Source: Aquabacterium humicola
Lineage (GTDB): Bacteria > Pseudomonadota > Gammaproteobacteria > Burkholderiales > Burkholderiaceae_C
Direction: 5' to 3'
Assembly: GCF_030167915.1 (NCBI RefSeq)
Contig: NZ_JARGNB010000001.1
Location: forward strand, 1,674,001-1,738,000
Length of the DNA stretch: 64,000 bases
The notes under the pieces are model-generated. The model worked only from the letters and a program-made list of their open reading frames with translations. It was not told the origin of the DNA and ran no database searches. Each line of letters starts with the position of its first letter. Positions within the stretch are counted from its first letter, which is position 1. Shown here piece after piece: positions 24,191 through 46,416 of the stretch. A program made the translations under genes and the position numbers.

Positions 24191-24210
24191 CTGGTGCGCC
24201 GGCGCACCAG
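24191..24210. promoter_or_regulatory. 20-bp perfect palindrome upstream of the pre operon
   Basis: CTGGTGCGCCGGCGCACCAG is a perfect dyad centred about 85 bp upstream of the predicted sigma-54 transcription start and 40 bp after the AraC gene stop. It contains GGTGC/GCACC arms, the same pentamers as NtrC sites but in reversed order, so it is not a standard NtrC enhancer. It could be an activator site or the terminator hairpin of the AraC gene; no T-run follows. Confidence 0.4.
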
Positions 24211-24259
24211 CGCGTGCCGCGCGCCGAGGGTCGGCGGGGGTTTGTACGGGGTCGTCACA

Positions 24260-24275
24260 TGGCACGTCCCTTGCG
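24260..24275 (+). promoter_or_regulatory. Sigma-54 promoter of the pyrimidine-degradation operon
   Basis: TGGCACG-TCCC-TTGCG matches the RpoN consensus (TGGCACG-N4-TTGCW) at all but the last base, with GG at 24261-24262 and GC at 24273-24274 separated by exactly ten bases. Transcription would start near 24286. This implies activation by an enhancer-binding protein, most simply NtrC under nitrogen limitation. Confidence 0.8.
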
Positions 24276-24292
24276 TAATATCCGTCGAATCC

Positions 24293-24306
24293 TGACCAAA
24301 CGGTCA
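24293..24306 (+). promoter_or_regulatory. RutR-type operator in front of preT
   Basis: TGACCAAACGGTCA is an inverted repeat (TGACC-N4-GGTCA) agreeing with the E. coli RutR consensus TTGACCA-N2-TGGTCAA except for one base in the right arm and the outermost bases. It lies 18 nt after the -12 GC and 55 bp before the preT start, overlapping the expected initial transcribed region. A near-identical site precedes the ABC operon that encodes RutR (46284-46297). Confidence 0.8.
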
Positions 24307-24361
24307 GCTTCGCGGTGATCCCGGGCCACCCTGCGCGCTCGGGCGTCAGGAGCCTGAAGCG

Positions 24362-25741
24362 GTGTCCACCCTCTCCCCCACCGGCACGGAGGCCGCGGCG
24401 CCCGAAGTGCGCGCCGGACGGCTCGATGCCGCGCAGTACCAGAGCCATTTCGGCGACGCCGCGCCGCGCTATTCGCGCACGCAGGCGCTGGTCGAAGCCG
24501 AGCGCTGCCTGTACTGCCACGACGCGCCCTGCGCGACGGCCTGCCCCACCGGCATCGACGTGCCCAGCTTCATCCGCCGCATCGCCGAGGACAACGTGCG
24601 CGGCGCAGCGAAGACGATTCTCGAATCGAATCCGCTCGGCGGTACCTGCGCGCGCGTCTGCCCCACCGAGCTGCTGTGCGAGCAGGTCTGCGTGCGGGTC
24701 GCGCAGCAAGGCAAGCCGGTCGAGATCGGCCGCCTGCAGCGCTACGCGACCGATGCGGTGATGGACAAGCCGGTCAGCACGCTGTTCACGCGCGCCGCGT
24801 CCACCGGGAAACGCATCGCGGTCATCGGCGCCGGCCCGGCCGGCATGGCCTGCGCGTTCGGCCTCGCGCGCCTCGGGCATGACGTCGTGCTGCATGACGC
24901 GCGCCACAAGGGCGGCGGGCTCAACGAATACGGCCTCGCGTCGTACAAGACCGCCGGCGGCTTCGCGCAGAGGGAGCTCGACTGGCTGCTCGGCATCGGT
25001 GGCATCACGCTGCGCTGCGACTGGCGGCTCGAATCGGCCGCCCAGCTGCAGGCGCTGCGCGGCGAGTTCGACGCGGTCTACCTCGCGATCGGTCTCGGCC
25101 GTACCGAGCCGCTGAAGCTGCCCGGCGAGGACCTGCCCGGCGTGCGCGACGCCGTCGACTTCATCGCCGAGCTGCTGCAGACCGCCGACAAGTCCACGCT
25201 GCCGATCGGCCGCCGGATCGTCGTGATCGGCGGCGGCATGACCGCCGTCGACGCCGCGGTGCAATCGAAGCTGCTGGGTGCCGAGGAAGTGCACATGGTC
25301 TACCGCCGCGGGCCCGAAACGATGGGCGCCTCGGCTGCCGAGCAGGACTGGGCGCAGACCAACGGCGTGACGATCCACCACTGGCTGGCGCCCGAGGCCT
25401 TCGAGGGCGAGGCCGGCCGGCTGATGGCCGTGCGCTTTGCGCGTCAGCACTTGCAGGACGGCCAGCTGGTCGCCGACGGCACGCATGAGCTCTTCGCCGC
25501 CGACATGGTGTTCCGCGCCGTCGGCCAGAAGCTCGATGCGCGGCTGCTCGAGGGCCTCGGGCTCACGCTGCAGGCCGGTCGCATCGTCGCCGACGACGAC
25601 GGCCTGACCGGCGTCGACAGGCTGTGGGTCGGTGGCGACTGCCGCTTCGGCGGCCGCGACCTGACCGTCGAGGCGGTCGAGGACGGCAAGCGCGCCGCGC
25701 AGAGCATCCATGCCACGCTGACCGGCTCCGGTCGCCACTGA
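24362..25741 (+). CDS. preT: NAD-dependent dihydropyrimidine dehydrogenase subunit PreT
   Basis: PreT takes electrons from NADH through FAD and iron-sulfur clusters and passes them to PreA for reduction of uracil or thymine. The 459-residue product has eight N-terminal Cys in CLYCHDAPCATACP and CARVCPTELLCEQVC (two [4Fe-4S] clusters), the FAD motif GAGPAGMACAFGLARLG, and an NAD-binding GGGMTAVDAAVQSKLLG. The start is a GTG with AGGAG eleven bases upstream. preA follows by 15 bp. The enzyme is related to GltD, present at 57.7 kb, but the operon context settles the assignment. Confidence 0.95.
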   Translation: MSTLSPTGTEAAAPEVRAGRLDAAQYQSHFGDAAPRYSRTQALVEAERCLYCHDAPCATACPTGIDVPSFIRRIAEDNVRGAAKTILESNPLGGTCARVCPTELLCEQVCVRVAQQGKPVEIGRLQRYATDAVMDKPVSTLFTRAASTGKRIAVIGAGPAGMACAFGLARLGHDVVLHDARHKGGGLNEYGLASYKTAGGFAQRELDWLLGIGGITLRCDWRLESAAQLQALRGEFDAVYLAIGLGRTEPLKLPGEDLPGVRDAVDFIAELLQTADKSTLPIGRRIVVIGGGMTAVDAAVQSKLLGAEEVHMVYRRGPETMGASAAEQDWAQTNGVTIHHWLAPEAFEGEAGRLMAVRFARQHLQDGQLVADGTHELFAADMVFRAVGQKLDARLLEGLGLTLQAGRIVADDDGLTGVDRLWVGGDCRFGGRDLTVEAVEDGKRAAQSIHATLTGSGRH

Positions 25742-25756
25742 CGTCGAAGGTCCACC

Positions 25757-27073
25757 ATGGCTGACCTCACGAACCACTTCGCGGGCATCAAGAGCCCGAA
25801 CCCGTTCTGGCTGGCCTCTGCGCCGCCCACCGACAAGGCCTACAACGTGCACCGCGCCTTCGAGGCCGGCTGGGGCGGCGTGGTCTGGAAGACACTCGGC
25901 GAAGAAGGCCCGCCGATCGTCAACGTCAACGGCCCGCGCTACGGCGCGCTGCTGTCGCCGGACCGCCGCATGCTCGGCTTCAACAACATCGAGCTGATCA
26001 CCGACCGGCCGCTGCAGCTGAACCTGCAGGAGATCCGCGAGGTCAAGCGCGCCTGGCCCGACCGCGCGCTGGTGGTCTCGCTGATGGTGCCGTGCACCGA
26101 GCAGGCCTGGAAGGCGATCCTGCCGATGGTCGAGGACACCGGCTGCGACGGCGTCGAGCTCAACTTCGGCTGCCCGCACGGCATGAGCGAGCGCGGCATG
26201 GGCTCGGCGGTCGGCCAGGTGCCCGAGTACATCGAGATGGTCACGGCCTGGTGCAAGCAGTACAGCAAGCTGCCGGTGATCGTGAAGCTCACGCCGAACA
26301 TCAGCGACATCCGCAAGCCTGCGCTGGCCGCCAAGCGCGGCGGCGCCGACGCGGTGAGCCTGATCAATACGATCAACTCGATCATGGGCGTCGATCCGGC
26401 CTCCCTGACCATCAGCCCGTCCACCGGCGGCAGGGGCTCGCACGGCGGCTACTGTGGCCCGGCGGTCAAGCCGATCGCGCTGAACATGGTGGCCGAGATC
26501 GGCCGCTCGCCCGACACCGCGGGGCTGCCGATCTCGGGCATCGGTGGCATCGGCACGTGGCGCGACGCGCTGGACTTCATCGCGCTGGGCGCCGGCAACG
26601 TGCAGGTCTGCACCGCGGCGATGGCTTTCGGCTTCAAGATCGTTCAGGAGATGGCCGACGGCCTGTCGAACTACATGGACGACATGGGTTTCCGGACCAC
26701 CGAGGACTTCCGCGGCCGCGCGCTGCCCACCGTCACCGACTGGCAGTACCTGAACCTCAACGCCGTCAGCAAGGCGGTGATCGACCAGGACAAGTGCATC
26801 CAATGCGGTCGCTGCCACATCGCCTGCGAGGACACCTCGCACCAGGCGATCACCGCGACGCTGGACGGCCGGCGGCACTTCGAGGTCAAGGAAGACGAGT
26901 GCGTCGGCTGCAACCTGTGCGTCACCGTCTGCCCGGTGCCCGAGTGCATCACGCTGCGCACGCTGGCGCCGGGTGAGGTGGATGCGCGCACCGGCCAGCC
27001 CGTCAGCGCCGTCGTGGCCGACTGGACGACGCATCCCAACAATCCGATGCGAAAGACGGCGGCCACCGCTTGA
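25757..27073 (+). CDS. preA: NAD-dependent dihydropyrimidine dehydrogenase subunit PreA
   Basis: PreA is the FMN catalytic subunit that reduces uracil and thymine to the 5,6-dihydro forms. The 438-residue product has a dihydroorotate-dehydrogenase-like barrel with the catalytic Cys in ELNFGCPHGMSERGMG, the same motif as in eukaryotic DPD. ISGIGGIGTWRDALDF binds FMN. A C-terminal ferredoxin domain has CIQCGRCHIAC and CVGCNLCVTVCPVPEC, which hold two [4Fe-4S] clusters. Together with preT and the next two genes it completes the reductive pyrimidine pathway. Confidence 0.97.
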   Translation: MADLTNHFAGIKSPNPFWLASAPPTDKAYNVHRAFEAGWGGVVWKTLGEEGPPIVNVNGPRYGALLSPDRRMLGFNNIELITDRPLQLNLQEIREVKRAWPDRALVVSLMVPCTEQAWKAILPMVEDTGCDGVELNFGCPHGMSERGMGSAVGQVPEYIEMVTAWCKQYSKLPVIVKLTPNISDIRKPALAAKRGGADAVSLINTINSIMGVDPASLTISPSTGGRGSHGGYCGPAVKPIALNMVAEIGRSPDTAGLPISGIGGIGTWRDALDFIALGAGNVQVCTAAMAFGFKIVQEMADGLSNYMDDMGFRTTEDFRGRALPTVTDWQYLNLNAVSKAVIDQDKCIQCGRCHIACEDTSHQAITATLDGRRHFEVKEDECVGCNLCVTVCPVPECITLRTLAPGEVDARTGQPVSAVVADWTTHPNNPMRKTAATA

Positions 27074-27120: not shown

Positions 27121-28572
<1,452 letters not shown>

Positions 28573-28583
28573 AGGAGACCACG

Positions 28584-29858
28584 ATGGACATGAAGACCAA
28601 GCCGCTGCCGGACAAGGTCAAGGGCCTGCGCATCAATGGCGAGCGCCTGTGGGACTCGCTGATGGAGCTGGCGAAGATCGGCGCGACCCCCAAGGGCGGC
28701 GTCTGCCGGCTCACGCTCACCGACCTCGACAAGCAAGGCCGCGACCTCGTCAGCCGCTGGGCGAAGGAGGCCGGCCTGACGGTCACGATCGACAAGATCG
28801 GCAACGGCTTCCTGCGCCGGCCCGGCCGCAACAACAGCCTGCCGCCGGTCGTCACCGGCAGCCACATCGACACCCAGCCCACCGGCGGCAAGTTCGACGG
28901 CAACTACGGCGTGCTGGCCGGCCTGGAGGTGGTGCGCACGTTGAACGACCACGGCATCCAGACCGAGGCACCGATCGAAGTGGCCTGGTGGACCAACGAA
29001 GAAGGCTCGCGCTTCGTGCCGGTGATGATGGGCTCGGGTGTCTTCGCCAAGGCCTTCACGCTGGAGCATGCCTATGCCGCGAAGGACGTGGAGGGCAAGA
29101 GCGTCAGGGACGAGCTCGAACGCATCGGCTACATCGGCTCCGAAGAGCCCGGCGAGCACCCGATCGGCTGCTATTTCGAGACCCACATCGAGCAGGGGCC
29201 GGTGCTGGAGGACAACGGCAAGACGATCGGCGTTGTCACCGGCGTGCTCGGCATCCGCTGGTACGACTGCGTCGTCACCGGCATGGAAGCGCATGCCGGC
29301 CCGACGCCGATGGCACTGCGCAAGGATGCGATGCAGGTCGCCGCGAAGCTGATGCAGGAAGTGGTGGCCTGCGCGCACCGCCATCCGCCGCACGGCCGCG
29401 GCACGGTGGGCATGGTGCAGGTGTTCCCGAACAGCCGCAACGTGATCCCGGGCCGGGTGAAGTTCTCGATCGACCTGCGCAATGCCAGCGATGCGATCTG
29501 CGACGCGATGGACGCGGACATCCGCGGCGTCGCGGCGAAGCTCAGCGCCGAGACCGGCCTGCCGATTGAGATCACCCCCGTGTCGGCCTACCCGGCGCAG
29601 CCGTTCCACCCGGACTGCATCAACGCGGTGCAGGCGGCGGCCGAGACGCTGGGCTACAGCAACATGCCGGCCGTTTCCGGCGCGGGGCACGACGCGGTCT
29701 ACATGGCGCGGCTGGCGCCGGCCGGCATGATCTTCATCCCCTGCAAGGACGGCATCAGCCACAACGAGATCGAGAGCGCCGAGCCCGAGCACATCACCGC
29801 CGGCGGCAACGTGCTGCTGCACGCGATGCTGGAGCGGGCGGGGGTGGCCGAGGGCTAA
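28584..29858 (+). CDS. M20 Zn-dependent amidohydrolase, probable beta-ureidopropionase
   Basis: The 424-residue product belongs to the AllC/HyuC group of M20 hydrolases that cleave N-carbamoyl amino acids to amino acid, CO2 and ammonia. Metal-binding motifs are GSHIDTQPTGGKFDG, WTNEEGSRF and YFETHIEQGPVLE, with the lid motif AHAGPTPM and a late histidine in KDGISHNE. Its position as the last gene after dihydropyrimidinase makes N-carbamoyl-beta-alanine the likely substrate, giving beta-alanine. Allantoate amidohydrolase is an alternative for this family. GAAGGAG precedes the ATG by six bases. Confidence 0.92.
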   Translation: MDMKTKPLPDKVKGLRINGERLWDSLMELAKIGATPKGGVCRLTLTDLDKQGRDLVSRWAKEAGLTVTIDKIGNGFLRRPGRNNSLPPVVTGSHIDTQPTGGKFDGNYGVLAGLEVVRTLNDHGIQTEAPIEVAWWTNEEGSRFVPVMMGSGVFAKAFTLEHAYAAKDVEGKSVRDELERIGYIGSEEPGEHPIGCYFETHIEQGPVLEDNGKTIGVVTGVLGIRWYDCVVTGMEAHAGPTPMALRKDAMQVAAKLMQEVVACAHRHPPHGRGTVGMVQVFPNSRNVIPGRVKFSIDLRNASDAICDAMDADIRGVAAKLSAETGLPIEITPVSAYPAQPFHPDCINAVQAAAETLGYSNMPAVSGAGHDAVYMARLAPAGMIFIPCKDGISHNEIESAEPEHITAGGNVLLHAMLERAGVAEG

Positions 29859-38828: not shown

Positions 38829-40070
38829 TCAGCACTGGTTGATCTTGAACTCGACACGCCGGTCGAGCGAGTCGCTCGCGTCGTCGGTGCCGGTGCCGAT
38901 CAGGTTCTCGCGGTAGCCGACGCCGCTGGACTTCATCTTGCCGGCCAGCGCCGGCGCTTCGCTCTCCAGCCGCTTCTGGATGAAGGCCGCGCGCTGCGCC
39001 GAGAGCCGGTCGTTGAACGACTCCGAGCCGGTGCGGCTGGTATGGCCGACGACTTCCATGCAGACGTTCGAGCCGGCGGCCTGCCTGGCGATCTGCCGCA
39101 GCCAGACCGTGTACGGCCCGCTGATCTTCTGGTCGGACCAGAACTCGGTGCCGCCGGGGTTGAACAGGAACTTGACGCCCAGCGTGCGCGTCGCGAGGCC
39201 CAGCGCGACGACCTTGCCGAAGGCCTGCTCGGCCTCGGCGACGTTGCCGAGCTTCCAGTTCGTCAGGTAGACGCCGTTCAGCGACCGCATCTGCTCGCCG
39301 GCCGGCGTCGTCAGGGCGCTGCGGTACAGGCCCAGCGCCTCCGGGTAGCGCTCGTTGTTGTATAGCGTCGTCGCCTCCTGGATCATCGCCGCGGCCGCGA
39401 CGCGTTCGAGGTAGGCCTTGTCGGCCGGCTGGCCCGGCGCAGCCTGCGCGGTGCGCATGTAGCCTTCGACGACGTGGTCCTTCAGCATCAGCACCGGCGT
39501 GTCGCGGTAGTACGGCGTCGGCGTGGTGTCGAAGCCCCCGTCGGCGGCGCGCGACGACGACTGCGCGACCACCTGGCCGCTCTTCATGTCCGTCAGCGAC
39601 AGGTGGATCTGGTACGGGCCCTTGCCGGCATCGATGCGGGTGATCGTGCCGACCGCGAGGTACTGCGCCCGCCCGAGGCTCTGCTGCGCGAAAGGCAGCA
39701 CGTCGAGGTGCGCATGCGTGCGCAGGCGGTCGTTGACCTTCTGGTCGAACTGCCGCGTCAGCGCGGTCTGCTGGCCCGACGCGGCATCGAGCGACGGGTC
39801 CATCAGCACCGGCATCTTCGCGGGCGCCTTGTTGTCGATCTTCGCGATCACGCCGGCCAGGCCGGTGGCCTGCGCGGGCTTGACCTGCGCGGCCAGCGCA
39901 TCGGTGGCGACGGCGATCGCCTGGTCGAGCGGCAGGTCCTGCACGCTCGCGCGCTGCACCGGTGGCGGCGGCGGGGTCTGGCAGCCGGCGGCCAGCAGGG
40001 CGGCCAGGGTGACGGCCGTGAACAGGACGTGGCGGTGGCTGCGTCGCGGGGTCGGGTGGCGCCGATTCAT
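38829..40070 (-). CDS. OmpA-domain lipoprotein with TPR-like middle region
   Basis: The 413-residue product has a lipoprotein signal with lipobox LAAGC near residue 30, then QTPPPPP. A middle region resembles CsgG/curli-type or TPR lipoproteins (LAVGTITRIDAG, then AATTLYNNERYPEALGLY-like repeats). The C-terminal OmpA peptidoglycan-binding domain (about 300-413) has VCMEVVGHTSRTGSE and FNDRLSAQRA. The ATG at 40070 overlaps the stop of the kinase gene (ATGA), so the two are coupled. It probably sits in the outer membrane and contacts the cell wall. Confidence 0.88.
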   Translation of the reverse strand: MNRRHPTPRRSHRHVLFTAVTLAALLAAGCQTPPPPPVQRASVQDLPLDQAIAVATDALAAQVKPAQATGLAGVIAKIDNKAPAKMPVLMDPSLDAASGQQTALTRQFDQKVNDRLRTHAHLDVLPFAQQSLGRAQYLAVGTITRIDAGKGPYQIHLSLTDMKSGQVVAQSSSRAADGGFDTTPTPYYRDTPVLMLKDHVVEGYMRTAQAAPGQPADKAYLERVAAAAMIQEATTLYNNERYPEALGLYRSALTTPAGEQMRSLNGVYLTNWKLGNVAEAEQAFGKVVALGLATRTLGVKFLFNPGGTEFWSDQKISGPYTVWLRQIARQAAGSNVCMEVVGHTSRTGSESFNDRLSAQRAAFIQKRLESEAPALAGKMKSSGVGYRENLIGTGTDDASDSLDRRVEFKINQC

Positions 40071-41866: not shown

Positions 41867-42502
41867 TCAAAGCCCGCAGCCGCGCAGGATCAGGCTGACC
41901 ACGTGATCGGCCGCGCGGGCCTGGTCGCGCGCACCCAGCGACTGCTTGCCGAGCACCGCGCGCACCTGCTCGTCGAAGTCGGCATAGGTCTGCGTCGCGG
42001 CCCAGATCGTGAAGAACAGGTGCGTGGTGTCGACGGCGGCCATGCGGCCGTCGGCGATCCAGCCGTCGAGCACCGCGGCCTTTCGCTTGACCAGCGTGCG
42101 CAGCTCGCCGCGCAGCAGCTCGCCGAGCACCGGCGCGCCATGCAGCACCTCGTTGGCGAAGACGCGCGACGCATCGGGCCGCTGCACCGACATCGCCATC
42201 TTGGCGCGGATGTAGCTTTCCAGCGCCGCGCGCGGCTCGGCGCCGGGCTCGAGGCTGTCCATCGGCACCAGCCAGTCGTGCAGCGTGCGGGCCAGCACCG
42301 CGCGGTAGAGGTCCTGCTTGCTGCCGAAGTAGTACAGCAGGTTGGCCTTCGGCAGCCCGGCTTCGTCGGCGATCTGCCCGAGCGTCGCGCCGTTGAAGCC
42401 GGCGCGGGCGAACACGCGCTCGCCCGCGCCGAGGATCAGCTCCTCGTTGGCCTGCCGGATCTGGCCCTTGGCAACCGCACCGTTGTCCGGCGGGGGACTC
42501 AC
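41867..42502 (-). CDS. rutR: RutR, TetR-family pyrimidine-responsive regulator
   Basis: From the GTG at 42502 the product has 211 residues (E. coli RutR: 212). It follows RutR throughout: helix-turn-helix GATLGQIADEAGLPKANLLYYF, of which residues around 40-60 contact DNA, then LYRAVLARTLHDWLVP, RVFANEVLHGAPVL and HLFFTIWAATQTYADFDEQ. E. coli RutR binds uracil or thymine and releases DNA. The start overlaps the stop of the upstream substrate-binding-protein gene (GTGA), making rutR the last gene of the uptake operon. Two sites matching the RutR consensus occur in the window, one ahead of this operon and one ahead of preT. Confidence 0.92.
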   Translation of the reverse strand: MSPPPDNGAVAKGQIRQANEELILGAGERVFARAGFNGATLGQIADEAGLPKANLLYYFGSKQDLYRAVLARTLHDWLVPMDSLEPGAEPRAALESYIRAKMAMSVQRPDASRVFANEVLHGAPVLGELLRGELRTLVKRKAAVLDGWIADGRMAAVDTTHLFFTIWAATQTYADFDEQVRAVLGKQSLGARDQARAADHVVSLILRGCGL

Positions 42503-43497
42503 TTCTGCGCGGCTTCCCAGACGGCGTGCGTCATCGCGGCCTTGCCCGGGTCCTTCTTGATCACCGGCGAGCTGCCGCCGGTCAGCAGCACCTTCACCGT
42601 GCGCTCGTAGGCCGCGGGCTCCAGGTAGCCGATCTTCTTCGTGCCGGCGGTGCTGATCAGCGTCGCGATGTTCTTCATCTGGCGCGTCTGTACGGCCAAG
42701 GTCGCGCTGCCCGACGGGTCGGCGGCGACGACGATCTTCGCGGCTTCCTCGGGGTTCTTCACCGCGTCGTTCCAGCCCTTGAAAGTGGCCTTCAGGAACT
42801 TGGCCATGCGGGCGACGAAGGCCGGGTCCTTCAGCTTCGGCTCGAGCACGTAGAGGCCGTCCTCCAGCGACGCGACGCCTTCCTTCTCGTAGAAGAAGGT
42901 GATCAGGTCGCTCTCCTTGACGCCGGCATCGACGACCTGCCAGTACTCGTTGTAGATCATCGTCGAGATGCACGCGGCCTGGTTCTGCAGCAGCGGGTCG
43001 ACGTTGAAGCCCTGCTTGAGCACCTTGACGTCGGCGTCCGGCTTGTAGCCCAGCTTGGCCATCCAGTTCAGGAACGGGTACTCGTTGCCGCCGAACCAGA
43101 CGCCCAGCGTCTTGCCCTTGAAGTCCTTCGGGCTGGCGACGCCGCTGGCCTTCTTGCAGGTCAGCATCAGGCCGGACTTGTCGAAGATCTGCGCGATGTT
43201 GACCAGCGGCACGCCGGCTTCGCGCGCGGCGAGCGCATCGGGCATCCAGTTGACGACGACGTCGGCCTGGTTGCCGGCGATCACCTGCACCGGCGACACG
43301 TCCGGGCCGCCCGGCTTGATCGTCACGTCCAGGCCCTCGGCCTTGTAGTAGCCCTTGGCCTGCGCGACGTAATAACCCGCGAACTGCGCCTGCGGCACCC
43401 ACTTCATCTGCACCGTCAGCTTCTCGGCGGCCATCGCGCCGACGCTGCAGGCCGCGGCCGAGGCCAGCAGCGCCAGCTTGATCAAGCGTGTCTTCAT
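42499..43497 (-). CDS. ABC transporter substrate-binding protein (NMT1/THI5-like), probable pyrimidine uptake
   Basis: The 332-residue product has a Sec signal (MKTRLIKLALLASAAACSVG to about 23) and an NMT1/THI5-like periplasmic fold: KLTVQMKWVPQAQFAGYYVA, then GGPDVSPVQVIAGNQADVVV and GVWFGGNEYPFLNWM. THI5-related binders recognise pyrimidine or amino-pyrimidine-like ligands. Operon membership with rutR points to uracil, thymine or a related precursor, which is inference. The ATG at 43497 has AAGGAG seven bases upstream; the frame extends to a GTG at 43572 that would remove the signal from the N terminus. Confidence 0.9.
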   Translation of the reverse strand: MKTRLIKLALLASAAACSVGAMAAEKLTVQMKWVPQAQFAGYYVAQAKGYYKAEGLDVTIKPGGPDVSPVQVIAGNQADVVVNWMPDALAAREAGVPLVNIAQIFDKSGLMLTCKKASGVASPKDFKGKTLGVWFGGNEYPFLNWMAKLGYKPDADVKVLKQGFNVDPLLQNQAACISTMIYNEYWQVVDAGVKESDLITFFYEKEGVASLEDGLYVLEPKLKDPAFVARMAKFLKATFKGWNDAVKNPEEAAKIVVAADPSGSATLAVQTRQMKNIATLISTAGTKKIGYLEPAAYERTVKVLLTGGSSPVIKKDPGKAAMTHAVWEAAQK

Positions 43498-43575
43498 CGT
43501 GTGCTCCTTGGGTTGCGTGTGAATGCCGGCCCGCTCCAGATCGGTCCGGTGGACGAGGAAATCATCATGCACAAG

Positions 43576-44514
43576 TCATGCGGTCGCGCGCACCGACGGG
43601 TGCCAGAACGCCACCTTGCGCTCGAGCTGCACCAGCAGCGCGTAGGCGATCGAGCCGGTGACCGCGGCGACGACGATCGCGCTCCACACCAGCGCCATGT
43701 TCATCTTCGCGGCCTCGGTGCTGATGCGGAAGCCCAGGCCGACGGTCGGCGAGCCGAAGAACTCGGCGACGATCGCGCCGATCAGCGCCAGGGTCGCGTT
43801 GACCTTCAGCGCGCCGAAGATGAAGGGCATCGCGGCGGGCAGGCGCAGGTCGAGCAGGGTGCGGCCGTAACTGGCGGCGTAGGTCTGCATCAGCTCGCGC
43901 TCGAGCCGGCCGGCGGCCTGCAGGCCGGCCAGCGTGGACACCAGCATCGGGAAGAAGGTCATCAGCACGACGACGGCGGCCTTGCTGGGCCATTCGAAGC
44001 CGAACCACATCACCGCGATCGGCGCGACGGCCACCAGCGGCACCGTGCTGGTCAGCGAGGCCAGCGGCAGCAGCCCGCGCTGCAGGAAGGGCGCGCGGTC
44101 GATCGCCACGCCGACGCCGAAGCCGAGCGCGCAGCCCAGGGCCCAGCCGACCACCACCGCCTTGAGCACGGTCTGCACGAAGTCCCCGGCCAGCACGTCC
44201 CAGCGGTCGACCAGCATCCGCAGCACGAAGGACGGCGCCGGCAGCAGCACGCGCGGCACCTCGTAGAGCGTGACGCCGACTTCCCAGAAGGAGGCCACCC
44301 ACAGGCCGAAGAGCGCGGCGGTCAGCGTGCCGTAGAAGCGGCGGCCATCGAGCGCGGCGACGCGGCGCACGCTCCAGAGCGCGAGCGCCAACACGGCCAG
44401 CAGCGCCGGCGTCATCCACGCCGCGCGCGGTTCACCTTCGACCGGCACCACCGACCACAGACCGATCGCCGCCAGCACGGCGATGACGACGGCGAGCAGC
44501 GCGCGGCCGATCAC
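43576..44514 (-). CDS. ABC transporter permease (pyrimidine-type uptake system), subunit 2
   Basis: The 312-residue permease starts at a GTG (44514) overlapping the stop of the other permease gene (GTGA). It has two extra N-terminal membrane segments, then the BPD-transp-1 core. The core has the EAA-like loop ASYGRTLLDLRLPAAMPFIFGALK and following transmembrane helices. Members of this SsuC/TauC-like group move taurine, sulfonate or pyrimidine-like compounds with an NMT1-type binding protein. It is third in the ATPase-permease-permease-binding protein-rutR order. Confidence 0.9.
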   Translation of the reverse strand: MIGRALLAVVIAVLAAIGLWSVVPVEGEPRAAWMTPALLAVLALALWSVRRVAALDGRRFYGTLTAALFGLWVASFWEVGVTLYEVPRVLLPAPSFVLRMLVDRWDVLAGDFVQTVLKAVVVGWALGCALGFGVGVAIDRAPFLQRGLLPLASLTSTVPLVAVAPIAVMWFGFEWPSKAAVVVLMTFFPMLVSTLAGLQAAGRLERELMQTYAASYGRTLLDLRLPAAMPFIFGALKVNATLALIGAIVAEFFGSPTVGLGFRISTEAAKMNMALVWSAIVVAAVTGSIAYALLVQLERKVAFWHPSVRATA

Positions 44515-45383
44515 GAGGCCCTCCGCCGCAGCACCAGCTTCTCGACGCCGGCCACCGCCGCCGTCAAACCCAGGCCCAGCAGCGCCGACATCACCAGGGC
44601 CGACCAGATCGCCACCGTGTTGCCGTAGTACGAGCCGGTGAGCAGGCGCGCGCCGAGGCCGGCCTGCGCGCCGGTGGGCAACTCGGCGACCATCGCGCCG
44701 ACGAGCCCCGCGGCGATCGCCACCCGCAGCGACGGGAACAGGAAGGGCAGCGCCGACGGCATCCGCAGCAGCCAGAAGGCCTGGTGGCGCGACGCGGCGT
44801 AGGTGTGCAGCAGCTCGGTCTCGATGCGCTGCGGCGAACGCAGGCCCTGCACCATCGCCACCGTCACCGGGAAGAAGCACAGGTACATCGCGATCGTCGC
44901 CTTCGGCGCCACGCCCGAGAAACCCAGGCTGCCGAGGATCACCAGCACGATCGGCGCGATCGCCAGCACCGGCACGGTCTGCGACGCGACGATCCACGGC
45001 AGCAGCGCGCGGTCGAGCGTGCGCGAGTGCACGATGGCCGCCGCCAGCACGATGCCGAGCAGGGTGCCCAGCACGAAGCCGACCAGCGTCGATTCGGCCG
45101 TCACCGCGACGTGGTACAGCAGGTTGCGCGGCGAATCCAGCGGCCAGTCGACGAGGCTGTGCCACAGGTCGATGACCACCTGGTGCGGCGACGGCAGCAC
45201 CGGCCGCTGCATATTCCAGGTCGTCGTGATCAGTTCGCCCGTCGTGTAGGCGCCCTTCGGCGCCAGCACGCGCTCAATCGCACCCGCCGAGTTCAGGCCG
45301 ATCGCGCCGAGGTACCACAGCAGCAGCACGGCCGCGAGCACGGCCGCGATCGGCAACGCGTGCTGGCGCGGGTCAGCTTTCAT
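44511..45383 (-). CDS. ABC transporter permease (pyrimidine-type uptake system), subunit 1
   Basis: The 290-residue product starts at the ATG at 45383, which overlaps the end of the ATPase gene by 11 bases. It has an N-terminal membrane helix (ALPIAAVLAAVLLLWYLGAI), a periplasmic loop, and the permease core with TLVGFVLGTLLGIVLAA and the ATPase-contact loop TYAASRHQAFWLLRMPSALP. With the second permease it would form the membrane heterodimer. Confidence 0.9.
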   Translation of the reverse strand: MKADPRQHALPIAAVLAAVLLLWYLGAIGLNSAGAIERVLAPKGAYTTGELITTTWNMQRPVLPSPHQVVIDLWHSLVDWPLDSPRNLLYHVAVTAESTLVGFVLGTLLGIVLAAAIVHSRTLDRALLPWIVASQTVPVLAIAPIVLVILGSLGFSGVAPKATIAMYLCFFPVTVAMVQGLRSPQRIETELLHTYAASRHQAFWLLRMPSALPFLFPSLRVAIAAGLVGAMVAELPTGAQAGLGARLLTGSYYGNTVAIWSALVMSALLGLGLTAAVAGVEKLVLRRRAS

Positions 45384-46233
45384 CGTCGGCGCCGTGGCCT
45401 GCTGCCAGGCCCTCGCGCACTTCATGGGCCAGCGCCATGAACTCGGGCGAGTCGCGCAGGTCGAGCGTGCGGGCGTCCGGCAGCGTCGACGGAATGACCT
45501 TCAGGATGCGTCCCGGTCGCGGCGACATCACGACGATGCGCGTCGACAGGTAGACGGCCTCGGCGATCGAGTGCGTCACGAAGACCACGGTGCGGCGCTC
45601 GCGCTGCCACAGCTGCTGCAGCTGCTCGTTGAGGCGGTCGCGCGTGATCTCGTCGAGCGCGCCGAAGGGCTCGTCCATCATCAGCAGCTTCGGCTCGAAG
45701 CCCAGCGCGCGCGCGATCGATACGCGCTGCTGCATGCCGCCCGACAGCTGCCACGGGTACTTGCGTTCGAAGCCGGTCAGGCTGACCCGTGCAAGCTGCT
45801 CGCGTGCGATGGCTTCGGCCTCGGCCTTCGCGCGGCCCTGGATCTGCAGCGGCAGCATCACGTTGGCCAGCACCGTGCGCCAGGGGAACAGCGCCGGCGC
45901 CTGGAAGACGTAGCCGTAGGCGCGTGCCAGGCGCGCTTCGCGCGGCGTCATGCCATTGACCAGCACCTCGCCGGCCGTGATGGGTTCCAGGTCGGCGATC
46001 ACGCGCAGCAGCGTCGTCTTGCCGCAGCCGGACGGCCCGATCAGCGACACGAACTCGCCCTGGGCGATCGCGAGGTCGACCTCGTGCAGCGCGCGCACCG
46101 GCGCGTCCGCTGAGGGATAGACGACGCTGGCGCGGCGCACGTCGACGGCGATGTCGGCAGCGGCAGGAACGGCGCCGGTGGCCGGCGCAGAGACACCGGA
46201 AGGCAGGCCTTGCAGCCGGTCGGGAGCATTCAT
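45373..46233 (-). CDS. ABC transporter ATP-binding protein (pyrimidine-type uptake system)
   Basis: The 286-residue ATPase has Walker A GPSGCGKTTLL, Q-loop VFQAPALFPW, signature LSGGMQQRVSIARAL, Walker B LLMMDEPFGALDE and H-loop VTHSIAEA, matching the nitrate/taurine-type NrtD/SsuB group. It is the first gene of the five-gene minus-strand operon. A RutR-type operator lies 50 bp upstream and a sigma-54 element just beyond it, so expression is probably nitrogen- and pyrimidine-dependent. Confidence 0.93.
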   Translation of the reverse strand: MNAPDRLQGLPSGVSAPATGAVPAAADIAVDVRRASVVYPSADAPVRALHEVDLAIAQGEFVSLIGPSGCGKTTLLRVIADLEPITAGEVLVNGMTPREARLARAYGYVFQAPALFPWRTVLANVMLPLQIQGRAKAEAEAIAREQLARVSLTGFERKYPWQLSGGMQQRVSIARALGFEPKLLMMDEPFGALDEITRDRLNEQLQQLWQRERRTVVFVTHSIAEAVYLSTRIVVMSPRPGRILKVIPSTLPDARTLDLRDSPEFMALAHEVREGLAAGHGADDES

Positions 46234-46283
46234 CGTCGGGGATGGCGCGTACGGGACAGCACGCGCGGAGGGACTCGGGGACT

Positions 46284-46297
46284 TGACCGATTGGTCA
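46284..46297 (-). promoter_or_regulatory. RutR-type operator in front of the ABC/rutR operon
   Basis: Read on the minus strand this is TGACCAATCGGTCA, differing from the preT operator (TGACCAAACGGTCA) at one central base. The flanking C before the left arm is also shared. It lies 50 bp before the ATPase start and 19 nt after the -12 GC of the sigma-54 element. RutR would thus repress its own operon. Confidence 0.8.
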
Positions 46298-46315
46298 GCT
46301 TATTGTGGCGGACGT

Positions 46316-46331
46316 AGCCAGATTTGTGCCA
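46316..46331 (-). promoter_or_regulatory. Sigma-54 promoter of the ABC/rutR operon
   Basis: On the minus strand TGGCACA-AATC-TGGCT matches the RpoN pattern with GG and GC ten bases apart and only two departures from TGGCACG-N4-TTGCW. Position relative to the operator and start codon mirrors the preT promoter. Confidence 0.7.
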
Positions 46332-46416
46332 CGCCGCGGGGCCCCCGCGACCCCCGGATCAACCCCCATAAGCCCGGGACGGGGGCGCCGCGCACCGGCG
46401 CGGCGCACCTCGCGCT

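Follow-up and report, generated by a model that had tools for sequence, protein, structure and literature searches.

In the 64,000-nt stretch of Aquabacterium humicola DNA that was analysed here (the window), a sigma-54-type promoter box and a RutR-type operator stand together in front of an operon for the reductive degradation of pyrimidines. This compound promoter is confirmed as a real feature: it is exact in the sequence, it lies far from chance expectation and, judged by its conservation, it is functional. With high confidence it is read as a sigma-54 promoter under nitrogen control that is followed by a RutR/PydR-type operator; NtrC would be its most likely activator, and a pyrimidine base would release the repressor from the operator. 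The two elements are:

24260..24275, plus strand: -24/-12 (sigma-54-type) promoter box TGGCACGTCCCTTGCG, supported by sequence, conservation and shuffled controls
24292..24307, plus strand: RutR/PydR-type operator CTGACCAAACGGTCAG, at approximately +7 to +22, supported by sequence and conservation

The positions of the box (24260-24275) and of the palindrome in the initial annotation, together with its distance of 55 bp to preT, are all exact in the sequence, the GTG start codon of preT at 24362 being 55 nt beyond 24306. The palindrome is best given as CTGACC-N4-GGTCAG at 24292-24307, instead of the shorter TGACCA-N2-CGGTCA. The box has GG at -24 and GC at -12 with a gap of ten bases, which would place the transcription start of preT near 24286. 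The consensus of the RutR operator is a 16-bp palindrome near TTGACCA-N2-TGGTCAA, from which the preT operator differs by three mismatches with a perfect TGACC/GGTCA core.

The expectation by chance was assessed with shuffled sequences. Without mismatches, TGGCACGNNNNTTGCG occurs once in the window as compared to a shuffle mean of 0.03 (three of 100 shuffles with one occurrence). At a tolerance of two mismatches the window shows no enrichment (9 observed versus 16.5 expected), and the argument therefore leans on exact match, spacing and conservation. TGACC-N4-GGTCA is present in two copies in the window, where shuffles average 0.05; the one at 46284-46297 is missing from the initial annotation. 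The two elements in a relaxed form, at their exact spacing, were found once in the window and in none of the 100 shuffles. A further match, at 39733, departs from an exact TGACC-N4-GGTCA and sits inside overlapping open reading frames, and was not accepted as an operator. Upstream of the promoter, at 24192-24209, a perfect 18-bp palindrome, TGGTGCGCCGGCGCACCA, was observed, for which an enhancer, a terminator or chance are candidate readings.

The operon downstream of the promoter comprises four genes:

24362..25741, plus strand: preT, NAD(P)-binding dihydropyrimidine dehydrogenase subunit, scoring below cut-off and named from its location
25757..27073, plus strand: preA, dihydropyrimidine dehydrogenase subunit (PRK08318, 705 bits, cut-off 335)
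27130..28572, plus strand: dihydropyrimidinase (TIGR02033, 573 bits, cut-off 393)
28617..29858, plus strand: hydantoinase/carbamoylase-family amidase, probable beta-ureidopropionase by its presumed substrate

Both preA and the dihydropyrimidinase gene score over NCBIfam cut-offs and the fourth gene over cut-offs of the hydantoinase/carbamoylase type, while preT matches GltD-like NAD(P)-binding proteins with a family score that stays below cut-off, and its name is taken from the adjoining preA. In a profile search of the organism's own genome no RutA was found over cut-off (best match 60.5 of 498 bits), which sets the locus apart from Rut pathway regulation, whose target is rutABCDEFG.

Conservation was analysed within the genus in a set of 21 genomes including that of the window, 16 of which have a close preT, and the best match was taken within a 260-bp stretch. 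The comparison of relatives that the initial annotation had proposed was favourable: both elements are kept with near-fixed spacing in all 16 genomes. The GG-N10-GC box is present in 16/16, the operator is perfect in 15 and within one mismatch in 16/16, and the offset from box to operator is 32-35 bp throughout and exactly 33 bp in 13 of the 16. In a wider search, 299 family genomes from 141 genera, a subset of a larger group, were scanned for the compound pattern. It was detected in 15 genomes, once in each, across eight genera, five of the 15 belonging to the genus of the window; the other 284 genomes are without it, and the reversed control yielded 0/299. The pattern is specific to preT, since 14 of the 15 matches lie directly upstream of this gene. 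The fifteenth match (L066) lies within the open frame of a gene and looks accidental.

Starting from preT instead of the pattern, the best 80 of 352 preT loci found show the relaxed box in 23 cases, the exact palindrome in 20 and both in 15, and 65 of these best 80 do not have both elements in the scanned stretch. The 15 two-element loci include ones from Aquabacterium, Rhodoferax, Rubrivivax and other Burkholderiales, and some of their contigs are also part of the genus set. Under the relaxed pattern the box is absent from the alphaproteobacterial, Roseateles, Pelomonas and Variovorax preT records. Operators of the TGACC type without the box precede preT in two Alphaproteobacteria (L125, Kiloniellaceae; L145, Pelagibius) and in a Proteobacteria MAG (L143), and at each of these loci a 49-53% identical TetR protein is encoded within approximately 270 bp; the tie of a RutR-like regulator to the reductive pathway is therefore not a local event only. 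As a separate observation, TTACCA-N2-TGGTAA-like sites were seen before preT in L041, L043, L109, L126 and L127, the last three of which also carry a TetR protein 42-45% identical to that of the window, a sign, perhaps, that regulator or operator has changed in those lineages.

A second promoter with this architecture (46283-46331) precedes an ABC transporter operon whose last gene encodes a RutR-like TetR protein:

41867..42511 (provisional start codon), minus strand: RutR-like TetR regulator (TetR_N and YcdC-like C-terminal domain)
42499..43572, minus strand: NMT1/THI5-like ABC substrate-binding protein
43576..44514, minus strand: ABC permease
44511..45425, minus strand: ABC permease
45373..46233, minus strand: ABC ATPase, encoded by the gene that opens the transporter-regulator operon
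46283..46298, minus strand: second operator CTGACCAATCGGTCAA, supported by sequence and conservation
46316..46331, minus strand: second -24/-12-like box TGGCACAAATCTGGCT, starting 33 bp before the start of CTGACCAATCGGTCAA

The -12 part of this second box is TGGCT and not TTGCW. Among the 16 genus genomes, the ABC promoter has the GG-N10-GC box in 15 and an operator within one mismatch in 15 (perfect in six), with a box-operator offset of 32-33 bp in all 16. In L067, L084, L085, L090, L094 and L128, preT and the ABC ATPase gene are divergently oriented; no operator was found in L085 by the pattern used.

Regarding the factors required for activation, two RpoN proteins and one NtrC score over cut-off in a profile search of the own genome, where several further NtrC-profile matches reach 290-390 bits. 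NtrC binds sites of the form GCAC-N7-GTGC. These were searched in 31 upstream regions, non-redundant and all matching the compound pattern in its relaxed form, and perfect sites were present in 12 of the 31 (shuffle mean 0.45, maximum 3), whereas eight other spacer lengths with perfect arms gave 0 or 1 of 31. When one mismatch is tolerated the contrast weakens: sites with the N7 spacer were found in 17 of 31 regions and those with spacers of 9 and 3 in 13 and 10, respectively, at a shuffle mean of 5.5 and a maximum of 12. In the 130 bp upstream in the window itself no good NtrC site was detected, the best one matching 6 of 8 positions. A third element is common to both promoters of the window:

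24238..24248, plus strand: dyad GGGTTTGTACG, its start 22 bp upstream of the -24 box
46355..46365, minus strand: second copy of the dyad, GGGTTGATCCG, at the ABC promoter

The dyad can also be written as GGGTTNNTNCG or GGGTTTGTCCG. A pattern derived from these two copies, GGGGTTNNTNCGGGG, has just two occurrences genome-wide, at the preT and the ABC promoter, and 0 in the reversed control. Its GGGTTNNNCC core is found with at most one mismatch in 16/16 genus genomes at each promoter, 21-22 bp from the box at preT versus 33-34 bp at the ABC operon, a difference of approximately one helical turn. The activator might be a sigma-54 enhancer-binding protein other than NtrC, perhaps one that recognises the GGGTT element, and the lack of a good NtrC site in the window, the constancy of the GGGTTNNNCC element and the additional NtrC-profile matches speak for it. 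This alternative is unlikely, albeit the one to be taken most seriously: perfect NtrC-type sites are over-represented in the relatives, the pathway is under NtrC control in B. cenocepacia, and the GGGTT element sits nearer to the promoter than enhancers usually do. NtrC is thus considered the likely activator of the preT promoter.

The candidate repressor, overlooked by the initial annotation, is encoded in the window and is the best RutR match of the 7.39 Mb genome (41879-42460, minus strand). It scores 194.5 bits in the RutR-profile search versus 73.8 bits for the next of 17 matches, shares 43% identity with E. coli RutR over 195 aligned positions, and has RutR entries as its closest solved structures. 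Two domains are over cut-off, PF08362 (TetR_C_3, YcdC-like) with an E-value of 1e-49 and PF00440 (TetR_N) with 7.7e-13. The uracil contacts given for E. coli RutR in the consulted part of PMC10891134 are W77, Y97, W167, Q171 and Q179, and all five residues are identical in the window protein. It misses the NCBIfam cut-offs for RutR (194.9 of 368 bits for TIGR03613; 178 of 230) and is therefore labelled RutR-like and not RutR. A different TetR-family protein could read the preT palindrome while the RutR-like protein regulates its own operon only; the 17 RutR-profile matches in the genome offer candidates, and loci of the Roseateles, Pelomonas and Variovorax type have a TetR protein only 36-42% identical upstream of preT. 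Such a division of roles appears improbable, since in the window the regulator's own operon has this operator too, at an identical offset, as does the ABC operon genus-wide, and since the operon that is divergent from preT in L090 and L094 visibly includes the TetR gene.

Further operators are found beyond the window. TGACC-N4-GGTCA occurs at 11 sites in the whole genome as compared to 5 in the reversed control. Five of the 11 have TGACCAA on one strand and adjoin nucleic-acid genes, according to a rule made post hoc: the preT and ABC sites, one between the genes of a 5'-nucleotidase and an outer-membrane barrel protein (L189, 11345-11360), one between the genes of adenosine deaminase and a PnrA-like binding protein (add/Bmp), and one upstream of an ExeM/NucH-like secreted nuclease gene (L190, 6703-6718). 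The nuclease and some of the other neighbours are under NCBIfam cut-offs and over those of Pfam. The sites of L162, L163, L166, L170, L171 and L172, all without TGACCAA, were set aside from their flanking sequence, and that of L162 may sit at a gene start. In the related genome G015, four of ten exact sites are located at preT, ABC, 5'-nucleotidase/barrel (L210, 3477-3492) and ExeM (L211, 3391-3406), and the adenosine deaminase/Bmp operator is absent. The nine exact sites of G012 include those of preT, ABC and an ExeM-like gene, whose product is 28% identical with a matched part beginning 1.6 kb on and a provisional gene start; no exact site of this genome is tied to a 5'-nucleotidase. G007 has three exact sites, with preT alone among the tested genes and none at the nuclease or 5'-nucleotidase. 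At the barrel gene, a box read by eye, TGGCAGGGCACTTGCG, lies on the minus strand with the operator upstream of it, and TGGCAAGCCACTTGCA was read by eye at the equivalent place in G015.

When widened to GGGTTNRYCCS, the dyad is also found at the nuclease and barrel operators in the genomes of the window and of G015, a co-occurrence that is partly by construction, as the pattern was widened after the ExeM and barrel sites had been seen. It has four matches in approximately 255 kb of own-genome loci, three of them at operators, and 75 in approximately 1.28 Mb of partly redundant other loci, 34 of them within 150 bp of an exact palindrome; the add/Bmp operator is without it. We know of no factor for GGGTTNRYCCS. 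Taken together, these sites suggest a putative nucleic-acid scavenging regulon that is only partly conserved. Tentatively, and with slightly less than even confidence, it is proposed that in Aquabacterium-like bacteria a RutR-like uracil-sensing repressor, sigma-54 and a second factor reading GGGTTNRYCCS would jointly run one regulon of a secreted nuclease, a 5'-nucleotidase with an outer-membrane protein, the ABC transporter with the repressor, and reductive pyrimidine catabolism, both catabolic promoters having the operator downstream of the sigma-54 start. A limited search of the RutR, PydR and reductive-pathway literature, partly at the level of excerpts, returned no description of this combined regulon, and a limited literature search found nothing that joins RutR with an extracellular nuclease.

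The palindrome at +7 to +22 is inside the presumed transcript and folds as a hairpin, so that it could act in the mRNA 5' end on stability or translation and not as an operator. This is very improbable: in an alignment of 15 of the 16 genus leaders (L030 omitted) the arms are kept as sequence, with two outer C-G to U-G changes, one broken pair and zero compensatory changes, and at the 5'-nucleotidase/barrel site a similar palindrome lies upstream of the -24/-12-like box. Even less credit is given to the reading of the -24/-12 match as a chance string with transcription driven by a vegetative promoter, for although the two-mismatch pattern is not enriched in the window, the box and its spacing are conserved in 16/16 genomes and 14 of 15 compound matches stand before preT.

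A different part of the leader was noted in its own right:

24308..24342, plus strand: leader segment, weakly supported candidate hairpin/pseudoknot (GGUG/CACC and CCRGGC/GCCYGG)

Here a covarying CCRGGC/GCCYGG stem, possibly crossed by a GGUG/CACC stem, lies just upstream of the ribosome-binding site. In the alignment 98.7% of the cells of the pseudoknot candidate are paired and two pairs have double changes, a number matched by 27 of 500 shuffles, and further pair types are below the shuffles. Single-sequence folding of the leader did not show the pseudoknot and gave a stability no better than that of shuffles (z -1.0). Two Rfam matches to the locus have E-values of 0.66 and 7.6, far under the gathering scores.

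In the proposed mechanism, nitrogen shortage would cause an enhancer-binding protein, most likely NtrC, to open the sigma-54 closed complex. At low uracil or thymine, a dimer of the RutR-like TetR protein on CTGACC-N4-GGTCAG (+7 to +22) would block opening or escape, and binding of a pyrimidine base would cause it to leave the operator. The preT-preA-dihydropyrimidinase-amidase operon would consequently be made only when nitrogen is short and a pyrimidine is present. The promoter of the same build on the operon of the ABC transporter and the repressor would result in autoregulation, and the further operators may tie in the secreted nuclease and the pair of 5'-nucleotidase and outer-membrane protein. 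A sigma-54 promoter with a downstream operator would thus form a compact AND gate for nitrogen shortage and pyrimidine presence, and the system may link the digestion of environmental DNA to the recovery of pyrimidine nitrogen.

The initial annotation had seen in this locus the control logic of E. coli rut, with the regulator rewired onto an alternative catabolic route. The sigma-54-type promoter and the RutR-type operator before a reductive operon hold, given their conservation and spacing and the presence of RpoN, NtrC and a RutR-like TetR protein. A noteworthy rewiring is not supported: PydR, NtrC of B. cenocepacia, the E. coli layout and the alphaproteobacterial operators speak against it. 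The title of Hidese 2012 (in PMC7332683), by which alone PydR of P. putida was compared, describes it as RutR-like and as repressing the reductive pathway's dihydropyrimidine dehydrogenase gene, in which it resembles the regulator proposed here. In B. cenocepacia H111, genes of the reductive pathway are likewise NtrC-dependent under nitrogen limitation: in the portion of PMC5491218 consulted, the ntrC mutant has log2 changes of -5.1 for dihydropyrimidine dehydrogenase, -3.7 for dihydropyrimidinase and -3.8 for a putative reductive-pathway permease. The words RutR, PydR, uracil and repressor are all absent from the main text of that article, and promoter mapping of these genes was not found in the portion consulted. 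Regulons of RutR have been predicted in 68 proteobacterial genomes of 13 taxa, with 743 target genes or 10.9 genes per genome (Leyn 2016, PMC5343134); the comparison with these regulogs was by summary counts, the member genes being placed in supplements and a database.

E. coli rutABCDEFG shares the actors with the window. The excerpts consulted report RutR repression and NtrC-dependent expression (PMC10891134) and list the rutA/rutR spacer among the RpoN sites of E. coli (PMC8743547), and the rutA promoter has the -24/-12 box TGGCATCCGCTTTGCA and a RutR-type site. The layout differs, as the RutR-like site of E. coli is centred approximately 98 bp upstream of the presumed sigma-54 start, in contrast to +14 in the window. 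With a site near -98 in E. coli, a carry-over of its control region was rejected. The pathways differ as well, that of rutABCDEFG being oxygen-dependent and that of the window reductive, in a genome without RutA over cut-off. The logic itself is already known, both types of control having been reported previously for the reductive pathway in the sources consulted, and it is the layout that is different. This suggests that a RutR-type repressor and NtrC go with pyrimidine catabolism under either pathway, with an operator placement in the window unlike that of E. coli.
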